Assembly: GCF_900170035.1 (NCBI RefSeq)
Contig: NZ_LT828554.1
Location: 96,557-129,897 of the forward strand
DNA from: Desulfamplus magnetovallimortis
GTDB lineage: Bacteria; Desulfobacterota; Desulfobacteria; Desulfobacterales; Desulfobacteraceae
Direction of reading: 5' to 3'
Length of the DNA: 33,341 bases
Shown here: piece after piece, positions 14,715 to 33,324 of the stretch
How the letters are laid out: each line of letters opens with the position of its first letter
How positions within the stretch are numbered: position 1 is the first letter of the stretch
The notes under the pieces: model-generated
What the model saw: only the letters and a program-made list of their open reading frames with translations
The model's database searches: none
What the model was told of the DNA's origin: nothing
Position numbers and translations under genes: made by a program

Positions 14715-15425
14715 TTAAATACCGAGATAAGCCTCTTTAATATGGGGATCCCCGAGAAGATCCTGAGCTTTTCCCTCCATGGCAATACGACCATGCTCCA
14801 GCACATACCCTCTGTCACTCAACTTCAGTGAGTGGTTGACATCCTGTTCCACCAGAAGAACCGTTGTTCCCTGATCTGCTATTTTTCGTATGGTCTCAAA
14901 GATGCTGTTGATGAGCACCGGAGCAAGCCCAAGGGATGGTTCATCAAGCATCAGAATTTTGGGTTTTGCCATAAGCCCTCTGCCAATGGCCACCATCTGC
15001 TGCTCCCCTCCTGAAAGGGTAATGGCAAGTTGAGCCTCTCTCTCCTTAAGTCTTGGCAGCATCTCATAGACCTCTTCCAGGGTCTCTTCCATGTATTGAT
15101 CTGCCCGTTCGTTGTAAGCGCCTACAATGAGATTATCTTTTATGCTCATGAGGGAAAAAAGACGTCTGCCTTCAGGGACATGTACAATTCCCTTGTGAAC
15201 AATCTCCTCGGGTGGCAAACTTTCAATGGCAGCGTCTTCAAACCTGATCTGCCCCTTTGCCGGATTCATCAATCCTGAGATGGTTCTCAGAAGTGTGGAT
15301 TTGCCGGCACCATTTCCCCCGATAATGCTGACCACTTCACCTTCATTTATGTTCAGGGAGAGATCGAAAATCACCTGAACATCCCCGTAAAATACATCGA
15401 TATTTTTGATGTCAAGAAACGCCAT
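14715..15425 (-). CDS. livF: Branched-chain-type amino acid ABC transporter ATPase LivF
   Basis: A 236-residue ATPase, one of the two that power the Liv-type importer. Motifs: Walker A GGNGAGKST near residue 36, signature LSGGEQQMVAIGRGLM, Walker B ILMLDEPSLGLAP, and the switch His in DVNHSLKL. The text HVPEGRRLFSLMSIKDNLIVGAY is the LivF hallmark that separates it from LivG. GGGGGGAG sits just before the ATG, and its start overlaps the end of livG by 14 bases. In this operon the cargo is probably not leucine but GABA or a related compound, judging only from the following gabT-gabD. Confidence 0.93.
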   Translation of the reverse strand: MAFLDIKNIDVFYGDVQVIFDLSLNINEGEVVSIIGGNGAGKSTLLRTISGLMNPAKGQIRFEDAAIESLPPEEIVHKGIVHVPEGRRLFSLMSIKDNLIVGAYNERADQYMEETLEEVYEMLPRLKEREAQLAITLSGGEQQMVAIGRGLMAKPKILMLDEPSLGLAPVLINSIFETIRKIADQGTTVLLVEQDVNHSLKLSDRGYVLEHGRIAMEGKAQDLLGDPHIKEAYLGI

Positions 15426-22732: not shown

Positions 22733-24202
22733 ATGCTGGATTTTCATAAATCAGACATACCGGTTGTATTTGTGGATGATGAGCAGTCAGAGCTTGATGC
22801 ATACAGTTTTCTGCTTCAATCCATGGGGGTGAAAAAGATTATCACCATAAAGGATAGCAGAAGCGTGATGGCCACCCTTGAATCTCTTCTCACCTGTGTG
22901 GTGTTTCTTGATCTGAATATGCCCCAAAAATCTGGAAAAGAGGTTTTGCAGGAATTAAAGGTGGCAAGACCGCATATTCCAGTGGTAATCTGTACGGCAA
23001 ATTCCGACATTGAAACAGCGGTGGAATGTCTGAAACTGGGTGCCCATGACTACCTGGTCAAGCCAATAAACATGAATACCTTTGGGTCTGCTTTGAGAAA
23101 TGCTCTTGAGATCTCTACTCTCAGGCAGGAGGTGATGAATCTAAAGGGGTTTTCCCTCTCCCAAAAGCTTAATCATCCTGAATATTTCAGGGAAATAATC
23201 ACAAAAAGTCCTGCCATGTTTACCCTGTTTCATTACATTGAGGCCATTGCTCCAAGTGGTCAGCCTGTATTAATTCTTGGGGAGACAGGATCGGGAAAAG
23301 AGCTTACTGCAAGGGCTATCCATGATGCAAGTGGAGTTACCGGAGATTTTGTGGTGGTGGATGTGTCAGGTCTTGATGACCCGCTATTTTCAGATACCCT
23401 TTTTGGTCATAAAAGGGGTGCCTATACCGGAGCGGAAAAGGATCGTCCGGGCCTTATTAAAAAGGCTAACAATGGGACGCTCTTTCTGGACGAAATCGGG
23501 GATTTGACAAAGGTCTCACAGATTAAGCTGCTGCGTTTGGTTCAGGAGGGCCTTTATTACCCTTTGGGGTCGGATCAACCTAAAACGAGCAGCACACGGA
23601 TTATCACGGCCACCAATAAAAAACTCAATCACCAGGTCCATAGCTCTGAGGGAGCAGAGGAGGAGAACTCCTTTCGCATGGATCTTTTTTATCGTTTAAG
23701 CACTCACCTTTTGATTCTTCCGCCACTTAGGGAACGAACCGAAGATATCCCGCTTCTGGTGGAGCATTTCAAGGCCAAGGCAGCAGATCAGATGAACAGG
23801 GAAGTTGTATCAATTGCAGATTCCCTTATTGCCATACTTTCCACACATCCCTTTCCAGGCAATATCCGTGAACTCAAGACATATATTTTTGATGCTGTTG
23901 CCAGATGCACCACCAGGGAGCTGACAGAGAATGATATCCTTGATCGGCTTAAACCAGGAATGGGTGTTGCTACAAAACTCCGTAAGGATTGTGCCATAGA
24001 TGAAAATTCCCATAAAGATCAAATGGGCGGCATAGATGCTCTTGAATACATTTTCGGGGGCTTCCCTACTCTGAATCAGTTGACGGAGTATGGGATTGAC
24101 CAGGCTTTGAAACGATCTGGAAATAACCAGAGTAAGGCCGCTGGTATGCTGGGGATATCCAAACAGGCGTTGAGCAAGCGGTTAAAAAAAAGACGAAAAT
24201 GA
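22733..24202 (+). CDS. Sigma-54-dependent response regulator (NtrC family)
   Basis: A 489-residue activator. Receiver domain 1-125: acidic pocket D15 and D16, phospho-acceptor D60 in VVFLDLNMP, and Lys in DYLVKPIN. AAA+ domain about 150-390: Walker A GETGSGKE, the sigma-54 contact loop GAYTGAEKDRPGLIKKA (GAFTGA with Tyr for Phe, a common variant), Walker B TLFLDEIGDL, and the arginine region PLRERTEDIPLL. The C-terminal Fis-type helix-turn-helix is NQSKAAGMLGISKQALSKRL. GGAGA lies 4 bases before the ATG. It follows the Cache kinase, so the two form a two-component system; targets may include the divergent liv-gab operon. Confidence 0.93.
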   Translation: MLDFHKSDIPVVFVDDEQSELDAYSFLLQSMGVKKIITIKDSRSVMATLESLLTCVVFLDLNMPQKSGKEVLQELKVARPHIPVVICTANSDIETAVECLKLGAHDYLVKPINMNTFGSALRNALEISTLRQEVMNLKGFSLSQKLNHPEYFREIITKSPAMFTLFHYIEAIAPSGQPVLILGETGSGKELTARAIHDASGVTGDFVVVDVSGLDDPLFSDTLFGHKRGAYTGAEKDRPGLIKKANNGTLFLDEIGDLTKVSQIKLLRLVQEGLYYPLGSDQPKTSSTRIITATNKKLNHQVHSSEGAEEENSFRMDLFYRLSTHLLILPPLRERTEDIPLLVEHFKAKAADQMNREVVSIADSLIAILSTHPFPGNIRELKTYIFDAVARCTTRELTENDILDRLKPGMGVATKLRKDCAIDENSHKDQMGGIDALEYIFGGFPTLNQLTEYGIDQALKRSGNNQSKAAGMLGISKQALSKRLKKRRK

Positions 24203-24292
24203 TCAATTGCTTTTAGCACAATTGCCTGGTTGATTATGCTGGATTGTTCAGCATTAGTCAAAGAATTTGGTGGCTGTTAAGGGTAAAAAAAA

Positions 24293-25219
24293 TTACCTGA
24301 GCAATGAAAAGCCCATAACAGCAACACCAAGTTCAAGTTTGTCATGTATGAGATGGTTTTCAGGTATAGCATTTAAAGCCTCTATGCTTAGTCCAAGGGG
24401 GACTCCAGGTGCAGCCACAAGGGTTTCAGGATAAATAAATTCTTTGCCGATGGTATCATCAACAGGGGTTGCTTCAATAATCAAGCGGTGATTTGCCAGC
24501 TCTTTTTTGATATCAGTTGCAACCTCTATATGGTTTTTATGATTGTGGAGAAAGTTTTTGTTTATTTTTGACTTTAAAAGTTGGGCTTTTTTCTCTGCAA
24601 TATCATAAAGTGTAATTTTTGCTCCGAGATTAATAAGCGTTTCTGCTGCACTTTGTCCAACAGGGCCGCAACCCATTACAAGCACATTTGTTCTTGCAAC
24701 CTTTTTTGCCATTATCACATTCGCTCTTTTAAGCCCTTTTGCCATCATCACATCCTCTCTTTCAAACCCTTTTGCCATTAAAGCCAGAGCTGTTGAAAAT
24801 GCCCTTCCTGTGGCTTCGCTGTTGTCAACAACCTTCCTTGTATTGAGGTTTATCCCCACAAAACGGTTGTCATCGGACATCATTATTGCATCTGCTTCGT
24901 CTTCAAATGCTTCTGCTATTCCTGATGAGTCTTTATTTTTAGTTACAGATGCTTTAAAGCCAATGTGTTTTAATATAGCACATACGGTTTCCGAAAATGT
25001 TGATATGATCCCGAGACCGGCGGTTACAGGAACTACTTTGATATTGAAGTTTTTTATATTTTTACCGTTGAAATATCCTTCATTTTTTTCATAGTCGTAA
25101 GAATTGGCAGTCATGGCAATTTCTGCAAGATTACAGCCTGTCTTTGCAAAAAGACTACGATCATAGCTCTCAAGTCCGGTTTCAATATCTTCAATGTCGG
25201 TACTTTTTAATCTTGTCAT
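24293..25219 (-). CDS. pylD: Pyrrolysine biosynthesis dehydrogenase PylD
   Basis: PylD oxidises 3-methylornithyl-lysine so that it cyclises to L-pyrrolysine, the last step of the pathway. I choose the ATG at 25219 (308 residues), which overlaps the pylC stop as ATGA and has AAGGTGG upstream; a GTG at 25228 is the alternative. Family marks: VVPVTAGLGIISTFSETVCA, a Rossmann glycine motif NVLVMGCGPVGQSAAETL (residues 178-195), LIIEATPVDDTI, and the ending LIHDKLELGVAVMGFSLL. Oddities relative to the archaeal protein as I remember it: an insertion near residues 43-60 (YEKNEGYFNGKN) and, at 148-179, three tandem 11-residue units just before the Rossmann motif. The order pylB-C-D is the usual one. 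Confidence 0.92.
   Translation of the reverse strand: MTRLKSTDIEDIETGLESYDRSLFAKTGCNLAEIAMTANSYDYEKNEGYFNGKNIKNFNIKVVPVTAGLGIISTFSETVCAILKHIGFKASVTKNKDSSGIAEAFEDEADAIMMSDDNRFVGINLNTRKVVDNSEATGRAFSTALALMAKGFEREDVMMAKGLKRANVIMAKKVARTNVLVMGCGPVGQSAAETLINLGAKITLYDIAEKKAQLLKSKINKNFLHNHKNHIEVATDIKKELANHRLIIEATPVDDTIGKEFIYPETLVAAPGVPLGLSIEALNAIPENHLIHDKLELGVAVMGFSLLR
24698..24796 (-). repeat. 33-bp tandem repeat (2-3 units) inside pylD
   Basis: Units 24698-24730 and 24731-24763 are similar throughout; a third, 24764-24796, is similar for its first half. The plus-strand word CTTTTGCCAT recurs each 33 bases. In protein: MAKGFEREDVM, MAKGLKRANVI, MAKKVARTNVL. The frame is preserved. Confidence 0.8.
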
Positions 25220-26562
25220 TTTAACCACCTTTGTATGGAATCAATGCAGGCGTTTCTTTTATTTTGAACGTCTTTATTTGAATTGCCGCAAAAAATCAAA
25301 GTCGCCACAAATTGTGAAGCATCTTCTCTGAAATCAGTAATGGCCTCGTCAGCACCAAAAAAGTCTGTAATAAGATATAGCGGGGTTCCTGTTGACATTA
25401 TGTGTTCTCCACAGAACTCGATTGAGCTTACGGTTTTCTTTTGTAAATCATATGATTTTTGTAAGTTGTATAAGGCATCTAATGAAGCATATTTTTTATC
25501 TCGATTCTGTTTTTCAATGTGTTGCCCTGTATTAACTTTGATGTGTTCATATATGACATGTTTTTTTGATGCTTTACTCTGGATTGCTGTTGATGCTCCA
25601 CAACTTTTTTTAATTGTTGGCAGATGGCTGTTAACAAAAATTTCCCCCAGCATTTCGACCATATTGATTCCGGTGGAGTGAAAAACCGCTGTTGGTGTCT
25701 GACTTGGCAGACGTGCGTCAATCTCAAGAACCTTGAGTCTGTTTTCATGGAGAATCACTTCAACATCCATAATACCTTTAAGATTAAGTGACTTTGCAAT
25801 GGAGATACTTATATTTTCAAAGGATTCAACAAGATGCAAAGGAATATCAACAGGGGATGTAACCCGACAGCAATCATAAAGGTCGTCCATGAAAAGCTCT
25901 GTTATCTCAAGAGCCCTGTAATTTCCATTAAATCCCATGACCTCAATTGAGTATGAAGGGCCGTCTATATACTGCTGAATAACAGGAAGTTCGGTTGATG
26001 ATTCAAGATTTATGTATGATTGGAACTCTTTTGCTGATTTTAAAATTGTGATTCCTTTGCTCCCGCTTGCATTGTCTGGTTTGCCAATGGCCGGAAAACC
26101 GCAGTGAGGCCATGGGATAGGGGCAGGGATGCCAATGTCTGCAAAAAGTTTGTCAGACTCTTTTTTGGATGATGATACAGCATATGCTTCTGGTGAAAAA
26201 GCAAGCGGAATATTATGCTCATCTGCAAAGATGGTAAGAGCATCAAGCGCTTGTTTGTTTTCAAGTGCCGGAAGGATAAAATCAGCATTTTGGAAGGCTT
26301 TTTTTATTGTAATTTGAGTATCTTTTTTAACTGCATTTTGAGTGCCTTCTGTTGTTGTAATTTCATTGGGTTTTCTAACTTTTTTGATAAAGCCCCCTGC
26401 TCTTGTCAACTCTTTTAAATCAAGCTCAATAAATTTGTGGCATAATCCTGATGCCGGCGGGCGGGGTTGTTTGTCAATTACAGTTACATGCCATCCGGCT
26501 TTCAGGGCAAGATATGCAGCTTCAACACCCTGGAGATTCCCTCCTGCAATTACAATTTTCAT
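25216..26562 (-). CDS. pylC: 3-methylornithine:L-lysine ligase PylC
   Basis: PylC joins D-3-methylornithine made by PylB to the side-chain amine of lysine using ATP. This 448-residue protein is an ATP-grasp ligase: N-terminal Rossmann-like part (MKIVIAGGNLQGVEAAYLAL, VTVIDKQPRPPASGLCHKF), the glycine-rich ATP loop DNASGSKGITIL, EVMGFNGNYRALEITELFMD, and the metal-binding end LKGIMDVEVILHENRLKVLE followed by IDARLPSQTP. Archaeal PylC has about 360 residues; the extra length lies in an 8-residue repeat stretch (about 63-90) and in a Lys/Gln-rich loop near 325-390 that includes YNLQKS YDLQKK. Both are in frame and outside the core motifs. It sits between pylB and pylD. Confidence 0.92.
   Translation of the reverse strand: MKIVIAGGNLQGVEAAYLALKAGWHVTVIDKQPRPPASGLCHKFIELDLKELTRAGGFIKKVRKPNEITTTEGTQNAVKKDTQITIKKAFQNADFILPALENKQALDALTIFADEHNIPLAFSPEAYAVSSSKKESDKLFADIGIPAPIPWPHCGFPAIGKPDNASGSKGITILKSAKEFQSYINLESSTELPVIQQYIDGPSYSIEVMGFNGNYRALEITELFMDDLYDCCRVTSPVDIPLHLVESFENISISIAKSLNLKGIMDVEVILHENRLKVLEIDARLPSQTPTAVFHSTGINMVEMLGEIFVNSHLPTIKKSCGASTAIQSKASKKHVIYEHIKVNTGQHIEKQNRDKKYASLDALYNLQKSYDLQKKTVSSIEFCGEHIMSTGTPLYLITDFFGADEAITDFREDASQFVATLIFCGNSNKDVQNKRNACIDSIQRWLK
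26303..26374 (-). repeat. 24-bp degenerate tandem repeat (3 units) inside pylC
   Basis: Three plus-strand units of 24 bases: the first has TTTATTGTAATTTGAGTATC, the second TTAACTGCATTTTGAGTGCC, the third GTTGTTGTAATTTCATTGGG, aligned without gaps. In protein these give 8-residue units KPNEITTT, EGTQNAVK and KDTQITIK. They are more diverged than the pylB units. Confidence 0.5.
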
Positions 26563-26580
26563 TTAATTTTTTCCGCCTTT

Positions 26581-26646
26581 TTTACCGTGAAAATGGATAC
26601 AAATTTTTATGTTATGGGGTGGCTGAATGACAGGCATGTCCGTTTA
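26581..26646 (+). repeat. TTTACCGT dispersed repeat, copy 7 (overlaps the pylB end)
   Basis: It reads TTTACCGTGAAAATGGATAC, then TTATGGGGTGGCTGAATGAC, ending GGCATGTCCGTTTAC. Its TTTACCGT end is about 19 bases before the pylC start. The other end encodes the last dozen residues of PylB (NGHACHSATP and stop). Confidence 0.88.
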
Positions 26647-28000
26647 CAGTGAAAAGATCCGCATCATTTTGGTGGGCAGATAAGGTTGGGTAATTTTCTA
26701 CATAAAGGCTTGTTTTGTTATATTTTTTTGGAGAATCATTTAATGGCTTTGTAATGCATGAAGAGAGTTTTCTCATGGAAATCCAGTGATTGAAATCATC
26801 ACATGAAGCAGGAACAAGCGAACATTCTTCCAGAACAGGCAGGATGCTTTCAGGTGTTCGTCTGGCATCTTCAATGTCAAGGGATGAGTGAGCAACTCCT
26901 GCAAGACCTTTTCCAGGGGGTACAAGGGATGTGACAACATTTGCACCTGCATTAAGTCTTTGTCTTAGGCCTGAAAGGCCATCAATATCAAGGGATGCAG
27001 GAATCAGTCTGTCAGGAAAAAGGGTTCTCATTACAGATATTGTTAAAAGCTCTTTTTGAGGGTCAACATATGGATGACGCTCCAGAGGAGTGCCATTTTG
27101 GGGTATAAATGTCATGGATCTTGTCTGGTCAGCATCCATTGACTTCATTTCAAACAGGGAATTTACAGTATCGTCAATAGTATCTCCTATGCCGCTTAAA
27201 AGTCCCTCTTCAATCAGTAATCCCGCTTTTTTTGCATAAAGTTTGCTGTTATAACGTTCGTCATAATCCTGATCTTTACGAATTTTTTCAAAAAGGCTTC
27301 TGTTATGGGTTTCCTGGTAGCATGCATAAAAGGCTGCTCCTGCATTTTTGAAATCCGACATAAGTTCAACAGGAATTTTCCCAAGTGATATCATGACAGG
27401 AAGGCCGGTCTTTGCATGGATTGATGATACCATATCCACAACTGTTTTCATTCCATCTGGCTGTTGATTGCCCATCCACTCATGGTGATGTTTGTTCATG
27501 GCTTCATGGAGGTGCTTGTTCGTGCTTTCATGGAGGTGTTTGTACGTGTTTTCATGGAGGTGTTTGTACGTGTTTTCATGGAGGTCATTGTTAATGTTTT
27601 CATGCTGGCTGTAAAATTTCAAATCCTCTCCCATGGTAAGATCAATCAGATGAACTCCGGAATCAGCCATATGACAAGCTGTTTCAATTACCTCTTCAGG
27701 TGTTTTTCTGTAGCGTACAAGGCCCTTGTTTGATTTTCTGAAATGGCAAAATGTACAGTTGTTTCTACAATGAGTGCTGAAATAGATAAACCCATACATA
27801 AATACCTTGTTTCCAAAATGTCGTTTTCTTATTGTTCTGGCAACTCTTTTCAGAAGTTGAATCTCTTCTTGTTTCTTCAGAGAGAGAAGAAAAGTTGTTT
27901 CAATCATATCAGGTGTTTTACCGGACATTATTTTGTTTAGTATTAATTCAAGCATATCCCGGGCTTTGTACCTGGGATCACTGTATTCTACCTGAAACAT
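26612..28000 (-). CDS. pylB: Radical SAM methylornithine synthase PylB
   Basis: PylB rearranges L-lysine to (3R)-3-methyl-D-ornithine, the first step of pyrrolysine synthesis. The 462-residue protein has the radical SAM cluster motif CRNNCTFC (C78, C82, C85), then LVRYRKTPEEVIETACHMAD and LIDLTMGEDLKFYS, as in known PylB proteins, and later SLGKIPVELMSDFKNAG, QTRSMTFIPQNGTPLER and VTSLVPPGKGLAGVAHSSLD. Archaeal PylB has about 350 residues. The surplus is a His-rich insertion of 8-residue repeats at about 134-178 and an unusual tail after WISMRKLSS, the end of which is translated from a dispersed repeat. The catalytic residues look intact. It is the first gene of pylBCD. Confidence 0.93.
   Translation of the reverse strand: MFQVEYSDPRYKARDMLELILNKIMSGKTPDMIETTFLLSLKKQEEIQLLKRVARTIRKRHFGNKVFMYGFIYFSTHCRNNCTFCHFRKSNKGLVRYRKTPEEVIETACHMADSGVHLIDLTMGEDLKFYSQHENINNDLHENTYKHLHENTYKHLHESTNKHLHEAMNKHHHEWMGNQQPDGMKTVVDMVSSIHAKTGLPVMISLGKIPVELMSDFKNAGAAFYACYQETHNRSLFEKIRKDQDYDERYNSKLYAKKAGLLIEEGLLSGIGDTIDDTVNSLFEMKSMDADQTRSMTFIPQNGTPLERHPYVDPQKELLTISVMRTLFPDRLIPASLDIDGLSGLRQRLNAGANVVTSLVPPGKGLAGVAHSSLDIEDARRTPESILPVLEECSLVPASCDDFNHWISMRKLSSCITKPLNDSPKKYNKTSLYVENYPTLSAHQNDADLFTVNGHACHSATP
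27479..27598 (-). repeat. 24-bp tandem repeat (5 units) inside pylB
   Basis: Units 27479-27502, 27503-27526, 27527-27550, 27551-27574 and 27575-27598; the third and fourth are identical. The plus-strand unit starts TTCATGGAGGTG. It encodes LHENTYKH-type octapeptides rich in His, Asn and Glu, continuing in degenerate form beyond 27598. Confidence 0.92.
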
Positions 28001-28284
28001 TTATTTTACTCCAAATGGGTAATAATCTGTTCGTTTATGCAGCAGAAAAAAAAATCATATTTGAAACAGATTGTCGAAGGTTTTCTTCATTTTTTTCATA
28101 TTAATGTTGATATCCAGTTTTCAATTTTGCAAAAGTGTAAAGTAATCATGAAACATAGCAGATAATCAAGTTGATTATAATCATCAACATATAAATGACA
28201 AACAAAAAGTGCATGCCCTGGTGGTATATCAGATACGTTTTCATGGTGAAGTTGATTTATATATGGTAGAATTTTTTATTTCTG

Positions 28285-28367
28285 CATTTTTGGGGGTTGG
28301 TTCTAACTTCAGACACCCTCTCAAAAATTATCATTGGCCGAAATTAGAACCAACTCCCATTTTTGAG
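28285..28367. repeat. Long imperfect inverted repeat
   Basis: Arms of about 28 bases: GTTGGTTCTAACTTCAG on the left and CCGAAATTAGAACCAAC on the right, extended by AT-rich ends (CATTTTTGGGG and CCCATTTTTGAG). The loop is about 25 bases. It may be a small mobile element or a terminator. The rest of 28001-28534 shows no tRNA (pylT was looked for) and no gene. Confidence 0.7.
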
Positions 28368-28534
28368 TAACTGCACGGCTGTTAGATTACATCAAGTATT
28401 ATGTCGCAGATCATAGGGATACAGAGCCTCTTTTGGGATTGTTGGAATCTTCAGTTCCCGATGAGGCAAAAGATGCCCTGGAGGATGAAACCATGCGGCC
28501 TCATTTTGCCGAAACCCTTGAAGGTGGAGTGATT

Positions 28535-29755
28535 ATGATAAAGGAAATTACTGTTGGAAACTGGAAAAGTTTCGAAAATGCAACATTTTATATTGATCCC
28601 CTGACGATACTGATCGGGGCAAATGCAAGCGGTAAATCAAATTTACTGGATACCTTTCTTTTTTTGATGAGGATTGCTTCAAATTTTTCCATTTCACAAG
28701 CAATTAATGGAGACGTCAATTTGTTGCCAATTCGGGGCGGTTTTGAATGGGTTTGCCGCAAGCCGTATGATAAATTTACAATTACGGTGATTACTGAAAA
28801 ATCAGAAAAACAGGATTATCAATATGTAATTAATTGTAAAGTGAACGATGCAAAAGTAGATGTTTCTTATGAGGCACTGTCAATCCTGACACAGTCTGGA
28901 AAAAAAAAGCAGATCAGAGAGAAGTTTCTATTCAAAACAGCAGAAGATGAATCAGATTCACCGGGCTTGCCCACCTATTTTAATACGGGCACACAAGGCC
29001 GAGGAAAACGAATCGACTTGAATCGCTCACACGCCATTTTATTCCAGGCGGAAACGCTTAATCTCCGAAAAGAGGTCGTTGATGCGGTCAAAAAAATATT
29101 GAATGAATTGCGGTCAATATTTGTATTTGATCCGATTCCAAGCCACATGCGGGATTACAAACCGTTTGCTGATACGCTCCAATCCGACGGTTCCAATATT
29201 GCCGGTGTCCTTGCGGGTTTGGAGAGTCAGAGGAAAGAAGAGGTAGAAAAAGCGCTGACACATTACCTGAAAGACTTGCCGGAAAAAGATGTCAAACGGG
29301 TATGGACTGAGCCGGTGGGTAAATTTAAAACCGATGCCATGCTTTATTGCGAAGAAGGCTGGGGAACTGAAAAATATGAAGTGGATGCCCGGGGCATGTC
29401 TGACGGCACGTTGCGTTACCTGGCCATTGTAACTGCACTTTTGACCAGAAAAGAGGAGAGTTTGCTGATTATTGAGGAAATTGATAACGGCCTGCATCCA
29501 TCAAGGGCAAAAATTTTGATTGATATGTTGAAAACACTGGGACTAAAGCGAAGTATAGATGTTGTTGTAACAACGCACAATCCCGCCCTGCTGGATGCAT
29601 TTGGCAACACAATGGTTCCTTTCATCACCGTTGCACATCCTGAGGAGCGGACGGGTTCCAGCCTTCTCAGGCAACTTGAAGATATTGAACAGTTACCCAA
29701 ACTGATGGCAGGCGGAACCATCGGCAGGTTGTCAACCGAAGGGGTTTCAATGTAG
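28535..29755 (+). CDS. OLD-like AAA ATPase (AAA_21 type)
   Basis: I start at the ATG 28535 (MIKEITVGNWKSFENATFYI), 406 residues, as family members begin this way; the frame is open to 28367 and reads through TEPLLGLLESSVPDEAKDAL, possibly part of a lost gene. It is an ABC/SMC-like ATPase: Walker A GANASGKS (28-35), signature-like ARGMSDGTLRYLAIVTALL, Walker B LLIIEEIDNGLHPSRAK, and H-loop VVTTHNPALLDAF. No TOPRIM nuclease domain is fused. Such ATPases often work with a small second gene in phage defence or DNA repair. Here only about 30 residues of frame follow, so it may be an orphan. The stop is TAG. Confidence 0.85.
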   Translation: MIKEITVGNWKSFENATFYIDPLTILIGANASGKSNLLDTFLFLMRIASNFSISQAINGDVNLLPIRGGFEWVCRKPYDKFTITVITEKSEKQDYQYVINCKVNDAKVDVSYEALSILTQSGKKKQIREKFLFKTAEDESDSPGLPTYFNTGTQGRGKRIDLNRSHAILFQAETLNLRKEVVDAVKKILNELRSIFVFDPIPSHMRDYKPFADTLQSDGSNIAGVLAGLESQRKEEVEKALTHYLKDLPEKDVKRVWTEPVGKFKTDAMLYCEEGWGTEKYEVDARGMSDGTLRYLAIVTALLTRKEESLLIIEEIDNGLHPSRAKILIDMLKTLGLKRSIDVVVTTHNPALLDAFGNTMVPFITVAHPEERTGSSLLRQLEDIEQLPKLMAGGTIGRLSTEGVSM

Positions 29756-31834: not shown

Positions 31835-31914
31835 AAGGATACCGAGATTTGCCTAAGGATACCGAGATTTGGCTAAGAATACCGAGATTTGGCTAAGGAT
31901 GCCGAGATTTGGCT
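31835..31914. repeat. 20-bp tandem repeat, 4 units
   Basis: Four contiguous 20-base units, consensus AAGGATACCGAGATTTGGCT, at 31835, 31855, 31875 and 31895, each differing from the consensus by at most one base. They lie 50-130 bases upstream of the deaminase gene. Twenty is not a multiple of three, so they are not coding; they may be regulatory or simply slippage-prone. Confidence 0.95.
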
Positions 31915-31962: not shown

Positions 31963-33324
31963 ATGAAAAATTCAATTTTAATAATAAACGGACTTCTGTT
32001 GACCATGGAACAGGAAATGCCACTTGTGGAAGACGGGGCAATATTCATAAAGGATGGCATCATAGTTGATTGCGGCACATCAAGGGAAATTGCGAAGCGT
32101 CATGGAAGAGTTGAAACTGTTATTGACGCAGAGTCACACATAATAATGCCAGGTCTTGTCAACTGCCATACACATCTGCCCATGTCAATGTTTAGGGGCC
32201 TTGCAGATGATCTGCCCCTTGATGTGTGGCTAAATGAACATATTTTTCCGGCAGAGGCAGCAATGTTAAATCCCGATTCTGTAAAAAAATGGGCATTGCA
32301 CTCCTGCATGGAGATGCTTCTTGCCGGAATCACAACCTGCTGTGACGGCTATTTTTATGAAGATCAGGTGGCAGAGGCGGTTATGGCATCCGGAATGAGG
32401 GCGGTTCTTGGTCAGGGTGTAATTGATTTTCCGGCTCCTGGTGTTCCTGAGCCTGCAAAAAACATTGATGTTGCCGAAGATTTTGTCAGGAAATGGAAAT
32501 CTTTTTCATCAACAAACAAATCTTATGTGCAAGATGCCGGACATTCCAGAATACAGGATGCCGGATATTCCAGAGTTGTACCATCTGTTTTTTGCCACTC
32601 CCCTTACACATGTTCAAGGGAGACACTTATAAAGGCAAAGGAGATGGCCAAAAGGCTTGGAGTGCTTTTTCAGATTCATGTGGCTGAAACAAGGGAAGAG
32701 ATGAACATGGTAAGGAGAATCAACTCATCAATAAGCGGTGATGAATCAAGAGATATGTCAGTGGTTCAATATCTTGACTCTGCAGGAATTCTGGATGATA
32801 AGACTCTTCTTGTTCATGCTGTCTGGATAAATGATGCAGACATGGAGATCATAAAAAGTCGTTCTGCAAAGGTTGCACATTGTCCAGAATCAAATATGAA
32901 ACTTGCATCAGGTATTGCGCCTGCCTGGAAGCTTGTGCAGGAAAATATATCAGTGGGACTTGGAACAGATGGCTGTGCCTCCAACAATACCCATGATCTT
33001 TTTTCTGAAATGGACATGGCAGCAAAGCTTCAGAAGACAGCTTTAATGGATCCATGTGCAATGGATGCAAGAAGTGTTGTTGAAATGGCAACAATCGGCG
33101 GAGCAAGGGCCATCGGGCTTGGCCATATTACAGGTTCAATAGTGCCCGGGAAAAAGGCAGATATAATCGTTGTTGGTCTGAGAAAGCCCCACATGGTTCC
33201 TGTATATAATCCCTGGTCAACTGTTGTTTACGGGGCAAAGGCTTCAGATGTTAGAGTTGTCATGGTGGATGGTACTATTCTTGTAAAGGATGGTAAATTT
33301 TTGAACCCTGATTTTCATGATTAA
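31963..33324 (+). CDS. MTA/SAH/5'-deoxyadenosine deaminase (amidohydrolase)
   Basis: A 453-residue metal-dependent amidohydrolase of the MtaD/DadD group, which deaminates S-adenosylhomocysteine, 5'-methylthioadenosine or 5'-deoxyadenosine, recycling SAM by-products. Metal ligands: H69 and H71 (LVNCHTHLPMSMFRGLADDL), H239 (FQIHVAETREE) and D336 (VGLGTDGCASNNTHDLFSEM); the PLDVWLNEHIFPAEA segment is a group signature. A 24-base tandem duplication (32527-32574) adds QDAGHSRI QDAGYSRV at 190-205, in a loop just before PSVFCHSPYTCS. The start at 31963 follows AAAAAGG directly, with AGGAG 12 bases away. 5'-deoxyadenosine is released by many radical SAM enzymes, but a link to nearby PylB is only a guess. 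The gene ends inside the window. Confidence 0.9.
   Translation: MKNSILIINGLLLTMEQEMPLVEDGAIFIKDGIIVDCGTSREIAKRHGRVETVIDAESHIIMPGLVNCHTHLPMSMFRGLADDLPLDVWLNEHIFPAEAAMLNPDSVKKWALHSCMEMLLAGITTCCDGYFYEDQVAEAVMASGMRAVLGQGVIDFPAPGVPEPAKNIDVAEDFVRKWKSFSSTNKSYVQDAGHSRIQDAGYSRVVPSVFCHSPYTCSRETLIKAKEMAKRLGVLFQIHVAETREEMNMVRRINSSISGDESRDMSVVQYLDSAGILDDKTLLVHAVWINDADMEIIKSRSAKVAHCPESNMKLASGIAPAWKLVQENISVGLGTDGCASNNTHDLFSEMDMAAKLQKTALMDPCAMDARSVVEMATIGGARAIGLGHITGSIVPGKKADIIVVGLRKPHMVPVYNPWSTVVYGAKASDVRVVMVDGTILVKDGKFLNPDFHD
32527..32574 (+). repeat. 24-bp tandem duplication inside the deaminase gene
   Basis: Units 32527-32550 and 32551-32574 agree at 20 of 24 bases and share GATGCCGGA and ATTCCAGA. The frame is kept. 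Confidence 0.85.

Follow-up and report, generated by a model that had tools for sequence, protein, structure and literature searches.

Desulfamplus magnetovallimortis very probably has a complete, working pyrrolysine system for the use of tri- and dimethylamine, with its genes separated into three places. The window analysed here, a stretch of 33,341 nucleotides (C15:96557-129897), comes from a genome of 6,677,998 bases in 108 contigs (97.3% complete, 0.33% contaminated). It carries the genes for pyrrolysine biosynthesis; those for charging and decoding lie on another contig, and two methyltransferase genes with in-frame TAG codons lie just beyond the window.

The pylBCD locus

Consistent with the preliminary description of this DNA, which had placed a pylBCD operon at 24293-28000, the window holds three adjacent open frames that all score above the NCBIfam cut-offs for these families. 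The genes and their surroundings are as follows.

26612-28000, minus strand: pylB, 3-methylornithine synthase (radical SAM), 462 amino acids; TIGR03910, 459.4 bits, cut-off 348.2
25216-26562, minus strand: pylC; TIGR03909, 390.5 bits, cut-off 248.3
24293-25219, minus strand, with a longer frame from GTG 25228: pylD, 3-methylornithyl-lysine dehydrogenase; TIGR03911, 224 bits, cut-off 150.05
22733-24202, plus strand: flanking sigma-54 response regulator, convergent with pylBCD
28433-29755, plus strand: flanking AAA ATPase, divergent from pylB
28001-28432, no strand: intergenic region between pylB and the AAA ATPase gene, with a promoter-like site at 28201-28174 (minus strand) and a 25-nt inverted repeat at 28291-28359

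Each enzyme has a solved relative (3t7v for PylB, E 1.2e-76; 4ffl for PylC, E 1e-41; 4j43 for PylD, E 1.2e-19), and PylD also carries a PylD_N domain (105.8 bits). The CRNNCTFC radical SAM motif noted earlier in PylB is present, and C78, C82 and C85 of this radical SAM site, together with D120, R294, S336 and D338, are invariant across 25 sequences. The latter four match D112, R235, S277 and D279 of 3t7v, which we take to be the substrate residues of PylB. The described ATGA overlap between pylC and pylD can also be seen in the sequence. Because this overlap includes the pylC stop codon, the likely start of pylD is ATG 25219, giving a protein of 308 rather than 311 amino acids (the latter from GTG 25228); five of seven relatives have methionine at the equivalent position.

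The flanks had been described as an unrelated regulator and a repeat-rich gap. The regulator is the sigma-54 response regulator listed above, and the gap at 28001-28432 contains the inverted repeat but no tandem array at score 40. Promoter and terminator scans around pylBCD performed no better than on shuffled sequences; 15 promoter-like sites were found over 24100-28500 against 12.2 expected, so the site at 28201-28174 is weak evidence for a promoter. The AAA ATPase weakly resembles the defence protein MAD3 (95.7 bits, cut-off 420). Elsewhere in the window, a 20-bp repeat occurs four times at 31835-31914, shortly before the gene for an amidohydrolase (31963-33324), a protein that itself contains the short repeat QDAGHSRIQDAGYSR.

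Decoding genes and in-frame TAG codons

The reported absence of pylS and pylT from the window agrees with our searches: ARAGORN found no tRNA-Pyl there, Rfam gave no match at the gathering threshold, and the PylSn and PylSc matches listed for the whole genome all lie on contigs other than C15, the window's contig. ARAGORN called a tRNA-Phe at 14770-14861, which we take to be false; it overlaps an ABC-transporter-like frame (14715-15425) and has no Rfam match.

The preliminary description had left two alternatives, a location of the decoding parts at some other place in the genome or their loss, and had suggested a genome search for pylSc, pylSn and a tRNA-Pyl with a CUA anticodon. All three were found on contig C2. 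PylSc is encoded at C2:259894-260625 (309.7 bits, cut-off 178.15) in a 284-residue open frame from TTG, and the five other matches to its model in this genome, at 20 to 25 bits, are far below the cut-off. PylSn is encoded 293 kb from pylSc, at C2:553613-553879 (119.9 bits, cut-off 51.15), and is followed after 0.6 kb by tRNA-Pyl(CUA) at C2:554476-554548. The fold of this tRNA has an acceptor stem of seven pairs, separated by one base from a D stem of five pairs whose loop has four bases; the anticodon stem is 6 bp long, the variable loop 3 nt, and the T stem has five pairs. The stems remain paired at sites that differ from seven relatives. Because PylSc, PylSn and the tRNA are all encoded, loss of the decoding genes is excluded for this genome. 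The pyl genes thus occupy three places on two contigs, namely pylBCD on C15, pylSc on C2, and pylSn with pylT on C2, rather than one bacterial cluster with all genes side by side. C15 and C2, two of the 108 contigs, could be near each other in the chromosome, but the 293 kb between pylSn and pylSc lie within a single contig.

The same search was suggested for methyltransferase genes interrupted by TAG, and two were found on the window's own contig, 1-4 kb beyond the edge of the window and about 6-9 kb from pylB, with one in-frame TAG each.

C15:130981-132384, same strand as pylB: mtbB, TAG at codon 356 of 468; TIGR02368, 515.9 bits, cut-off 369.1
C15:132479-133945, same strand as pylB: mttB, TAG at codon 328 of 489; TIGR02369, 734 bits, cut-off 525

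These scores were obtained with TAG read as a residue; a standard gene caller would cut both proteins at the TAG. The presence of the genes, their open frames, their family membership and the in-frame TAG codons can all be observed directly. The TAG of mttB recurs at the same site, followed by GDSK, in four loci of three genomes, and identity between MttB and relatives sharing this site reaches 82%. MtmB was not found in this genome. Among its 13 MTTB-family matches, one has a TAG; the only other match with a stop, on C20, was rejected as a second recoded gene, its stop being TAA and lying upstream of the likely start methionine. Beyond mtbB and mttB are another MttB-like gene, which lacks a TAG and at 241.6 bits does not reach the cut-off of 525, and a gene for a GntR-type regulator; a corrinoid protein gene lies 2.4 kb from mttB (TIGR02370, 215.6 bits, cut-off 215.3). 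A gene of the molybdenum S/N-oxide reductase family (L117:7875-10481), scoring far under the family cut-offs, is found near the methylamine genes and could supply trimethylamine from its oxide.

The position of pylBCD by itself between a regulator and an ATPase gene might suggest that these enzymes serve another purpose, for example to make free pyrrolysine or 3-methylornithine as a metabolite outside the genetic code. We regard this as highly improbable, because the genome has pylSn, pylSc and pylT, and two genes with pyrrolysine codons lie close to pylB on the same strand. For the complete system that we favour, we infer the reactions, the charging of the tRNA and the place in metabolism from known families. 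PylB would convert L-lysine to 3-methylornithine, PylC would join 3-methylornithine to a second lysine, and PylD would oxidize the product of PylC, closing the ring. The split PylSc and PylSn, made from two other sites in the genome, would then charge tRNA-Pyl(CUA), and this tRNA would place a single pyrrolysine in each of MttB and MtbB, at a UAG codon. With trimethylamine and dimethylamine as methyl donors, the two enzymes would methylate a corrinoid protein; a gene for such a protein lies nearby.

A tRNA-Sec was also found, at C1:954643-954736 (L001:1501-1594), over the Rfam cut-off with 76.6 bits, so that UGA as well as UAG probably encodes an additional amino acid in this genome. Avoidance of TAG as a stop codon was rejected: among the long frames sampled here, 35 of 224 stop at TAG, and the proportion is similar in two genomes of the genus that lack PylB (21 of 127 and 5 of 33). 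Excerpts of PMC3941956 state that bacteria handle pyrrolysine through regulation rather than codon avoidance, and this genome fits that pattern.

Tandem repeats and the state of the enzymes

In addition to the features described earlier, pylB, pylC and pylD each contain an in-frame tandem array.

27480-27604, minus strand: array in pylB, 24-bp unit, 5.2 copies, in frame
26298-26363, minus strand: array in pylC, 24-bp unit, 2.8 copies, inside an insert near residues 51-84
24683-24778, minus strand: array in pylD, 33-bp unit, 2.9 copies, in frame

The pylB array corresponds to an insert of about 47 residues (about 133-179) with pLDDT below 50. This insert is absent from nine of ten relatives; the tenth, G377, has a different repeat at the same place. 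The pylD array corresponds to a 22-residue insert (159-180, counted from GTG 25228) between the N-terminal and Rossmann parts of the protein. PylC has further inserts near residues 319-329 and 346-378, in which no array was called. A role for the repeats as phase switches was rejected, as units of 24, 24 and 33 bp preserve the frame.

We surveyed arrays with a period of at least 9 and a score of at least 60 inside long frames. Within the window, 3 of 24 long frames have such arrays, and these are pylB, pylC and pylD, a coincidence that was noticed after the fact. Across 400 kb sampled from this genome (L138-L157), 22 of 224 long frames have them, and the period is divisible by three in 28 of 28 arrays inside frames versus 15 of 43 clear of frames (nine more lie at frame edges). 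The corresponding counts were 7 of 127 and 4 of 33 long frames in two genomes of the same genus, the latter from seven short contigs and three longer stretches, and, near pyl genes, 2 of 149 frames in other genera of the family and 0 of 66 in other families. Because these samples differ in G+C content and in how they were chosen, we consider it likely, rather than proved, that in-frame arrays are a habit of this genus. We found no report of in-frame tandem repeats in this family in open-licence papers, which counts as weak evidence.

Structure models built from 25-row alignments are confident across most of the core of PylB and PylC. The PylB model (mean pLDDT 74.2) matches 3t7v best, with a TM-score of 0.92 normalized to the length of the target and 0.68 to that of the query, and its pLDDT falls below 50 at residues 1-8, 89-96, 364-375 and 417-462 and in the insert at 133-180; residues 89-96 come directly after the radical SAM cysteines. 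The PylC model (mean pLDDT 86.6) falls below 50 at residues 59-63 and 318-327. Most likely the repeats are additional stretches outside intact catalytic cores, with poor order in PylB at the least; such inserts could slow the enzymes.

Conservation was assessed in alignments of 24-25 sequences, with a column taken as conserved if it was the same in at least 95% of the other rows. PylB departs from 4 of 103 conserved columns (rank 23 of 25 for retention) and PylC from 4 of 87 (rank 21 of 25), and both are among the least similar to the family's other members, and so evolve faster than most. PylD departs from 0 of 49 (rank 1 of 24). PylB and PylC are thus less conservative than most, with open frames and motifs that bear no sign of decay. 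One possible explanation for the divergence of PylB and PylC, for the repeats in all three enzymes and for the scattering of the genes is that the system is decaying under relaxed selection, with pyrrolysine poorly made or unused. In line with this, six other genomes of the genus (69-98% complete) yielded no PylB at 1e-40 and no MtbB. We nevertheless consider decay very unlikely: all five pyl proteins have open frames and score above their family cut-offs, the tRNA-Pyl stems are paired despite changes, PylD keeps all 49 conserved columns, MttB shares up to 82% identity with relatives that have the same TAG site, and repeats of this kind occur in 22 of the 224 long frames sampled from this genome.

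Gene layout across the order

To place this layout, we draw on a survey of 389 genomes of the order, in which 61 had a PylB-like match at 1e-40 and 50 of these were over the cut-off. We carried on with 54 of the 61. G119, G146, G169, G185, G201, G213 and G242, with best E values of 3e-43 to 1e-47, were under the cut-off and were dropped; G075, G280, G319 and G374 were kept though under it, and of these G075 and G374 are truncated at the end of a contig. Thresholds were 1e-3 for PylSn, 1e-30 for PylSc and PylC, and 1e-15 for PylD, and split pieces were merged by coordinates (PylB in G000 and G377, PylD in G000). Genes less than 5 kb apart were counted as one cluster, a definition under which breaks at contig ends are indistinguishable from real breaks.

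All five genes were present in 43 of the 54 genomes (21 of 26 in the window genome's family versus 22 of 28 in other families), and in 33 of these 43 they form a single cluster. Single clusters make up 14 of 21 sets in the window genome's family versus 19 of 22 in other families, leaving split or incomplete clusters in 7 of 21 versus 3 of 22, a small difference that contig ends may explain in part. The order pylT-Sc-B-C-D-Sn, which the preliminary description gave as usual, holds for the other families, where the one-cluster genomes all read Sc-B-C-D-Sn (19 of 19), but not for the window genome's own family, where 13 of 14 read Sn-B-C-D-Sc.

A cluster of pylBCD only was found in 3 of the 54 genomes, including that of the window. 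The other two such clusters start 52 and 338 bases from a contig start, so a contig end may explain them; in one of these genomes, G387, neither PylSn nor PylSc was found. The pylBCD cluster of the window genome lies far from both contig ends. Among relatives from named genomes (the best 80 of 365), 31 have at least 5 kb on either side of pylB, and none of these 31 loci has pylBCD alone, though other partial sets occur. G340 (L120), in two contigs with a chromosome of 5,589,073 bases, has tRNA-Pyl, PylSn and PylB, and gave no PylC, PylD or PylSc at the thresholds used. G280 (L133) and G319 (C65:26509-27537) have PylB-like proteins just below the cut-off (334 bits versus 348.2) and no other pyl genes at these thresholds; these proteins are perhaps a paralogue with another role.

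In quick trees with SH-aLRT as the only support measure, the window's PylD falls within its own family's clade (99), and its PylC (99) and PylSc (91) pair with G332. The PylC pair sits among rows of other families. PylB pairs with G079, a row from another family (84), and this pair lies inside a 25-row set (97) of which 23 rows are from the window genome's family. On these trees, PylD and PylSc are consistent with an inherited cluster that broke up, and for pylB or pylC an exchange with other families is conceivable.

The published bacterial clusters, given as pylT-Sc-B-C-D-Sn and pylSn-Sc-B-C-D in excerpts of PMC3941956 and PMC2933860, have in common with this genome the proteins, the split PylS, the tRNA type and the kind of methyltransferase target; by contrast, the genes here are in three places. 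Separation of pylBCD from the decoding genes has a precedent: as excerpted, PMC2933860 describes separate pylBCD and pylTScSn clusters in the unclosed genome of a deltaproteobacterial intestinal symbiont of a worm. That symbiont keeps pylT, pylSc and pylSn together, whereas here pylSc and pylSn are far apart on one contig, and the present layout is therefore a variant of one already in print. The archaeon 'Ca. M. alvus' also has separated pyl genes, but there, according to excerpts of PMC3941956, only pylB is apart, about 0.7 Mb from pylTSCD. Marine Desulfobacteraceae with a dual code expansion have tRNA-Pyl, pylBCD, PylS and an MttB with an amber codon at 327 of 485 (PMC8318568), much as in this genome, which has tRNA-Sec too; the excerpts of that paper describe neither pyl gene order nor repeats in the enzymes. 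We found no report of a three-place layout or of repeats in pyl enzymes in the open-licence literature covered, including main-text excerpts of PMC2933860, PMC3941956, PMC8318568 and PMC11363022. We read this as an otherwise ordinary and complete pyrrolysine system whose genes are unusually scattered, and the main inference of the preliminary description was right.

It is possible, though we offer this only tentatively, that the separation lets the supply and the charging of pyrrolysine be controlled apart, so that genes ending in TAG would not be read through in ordinary growth. In that case pylBCD, near the methyltransferase genes, could be induced together with these, the PylS halves and the tRNA being controlled in another way, and the repeats would be tolerated or would tune the amount or solubility of the enzymes.

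These results settle what might have been a puzzle of missing parts, as a full pyrrolysine system is encoded although the window has the biosynthesis genes only. Searches that expect a single pyl cluster could misjudge such genomes. A family with its own gene order and with split clusters would be useful for studying how a code-expansion cassette survives without linkage.
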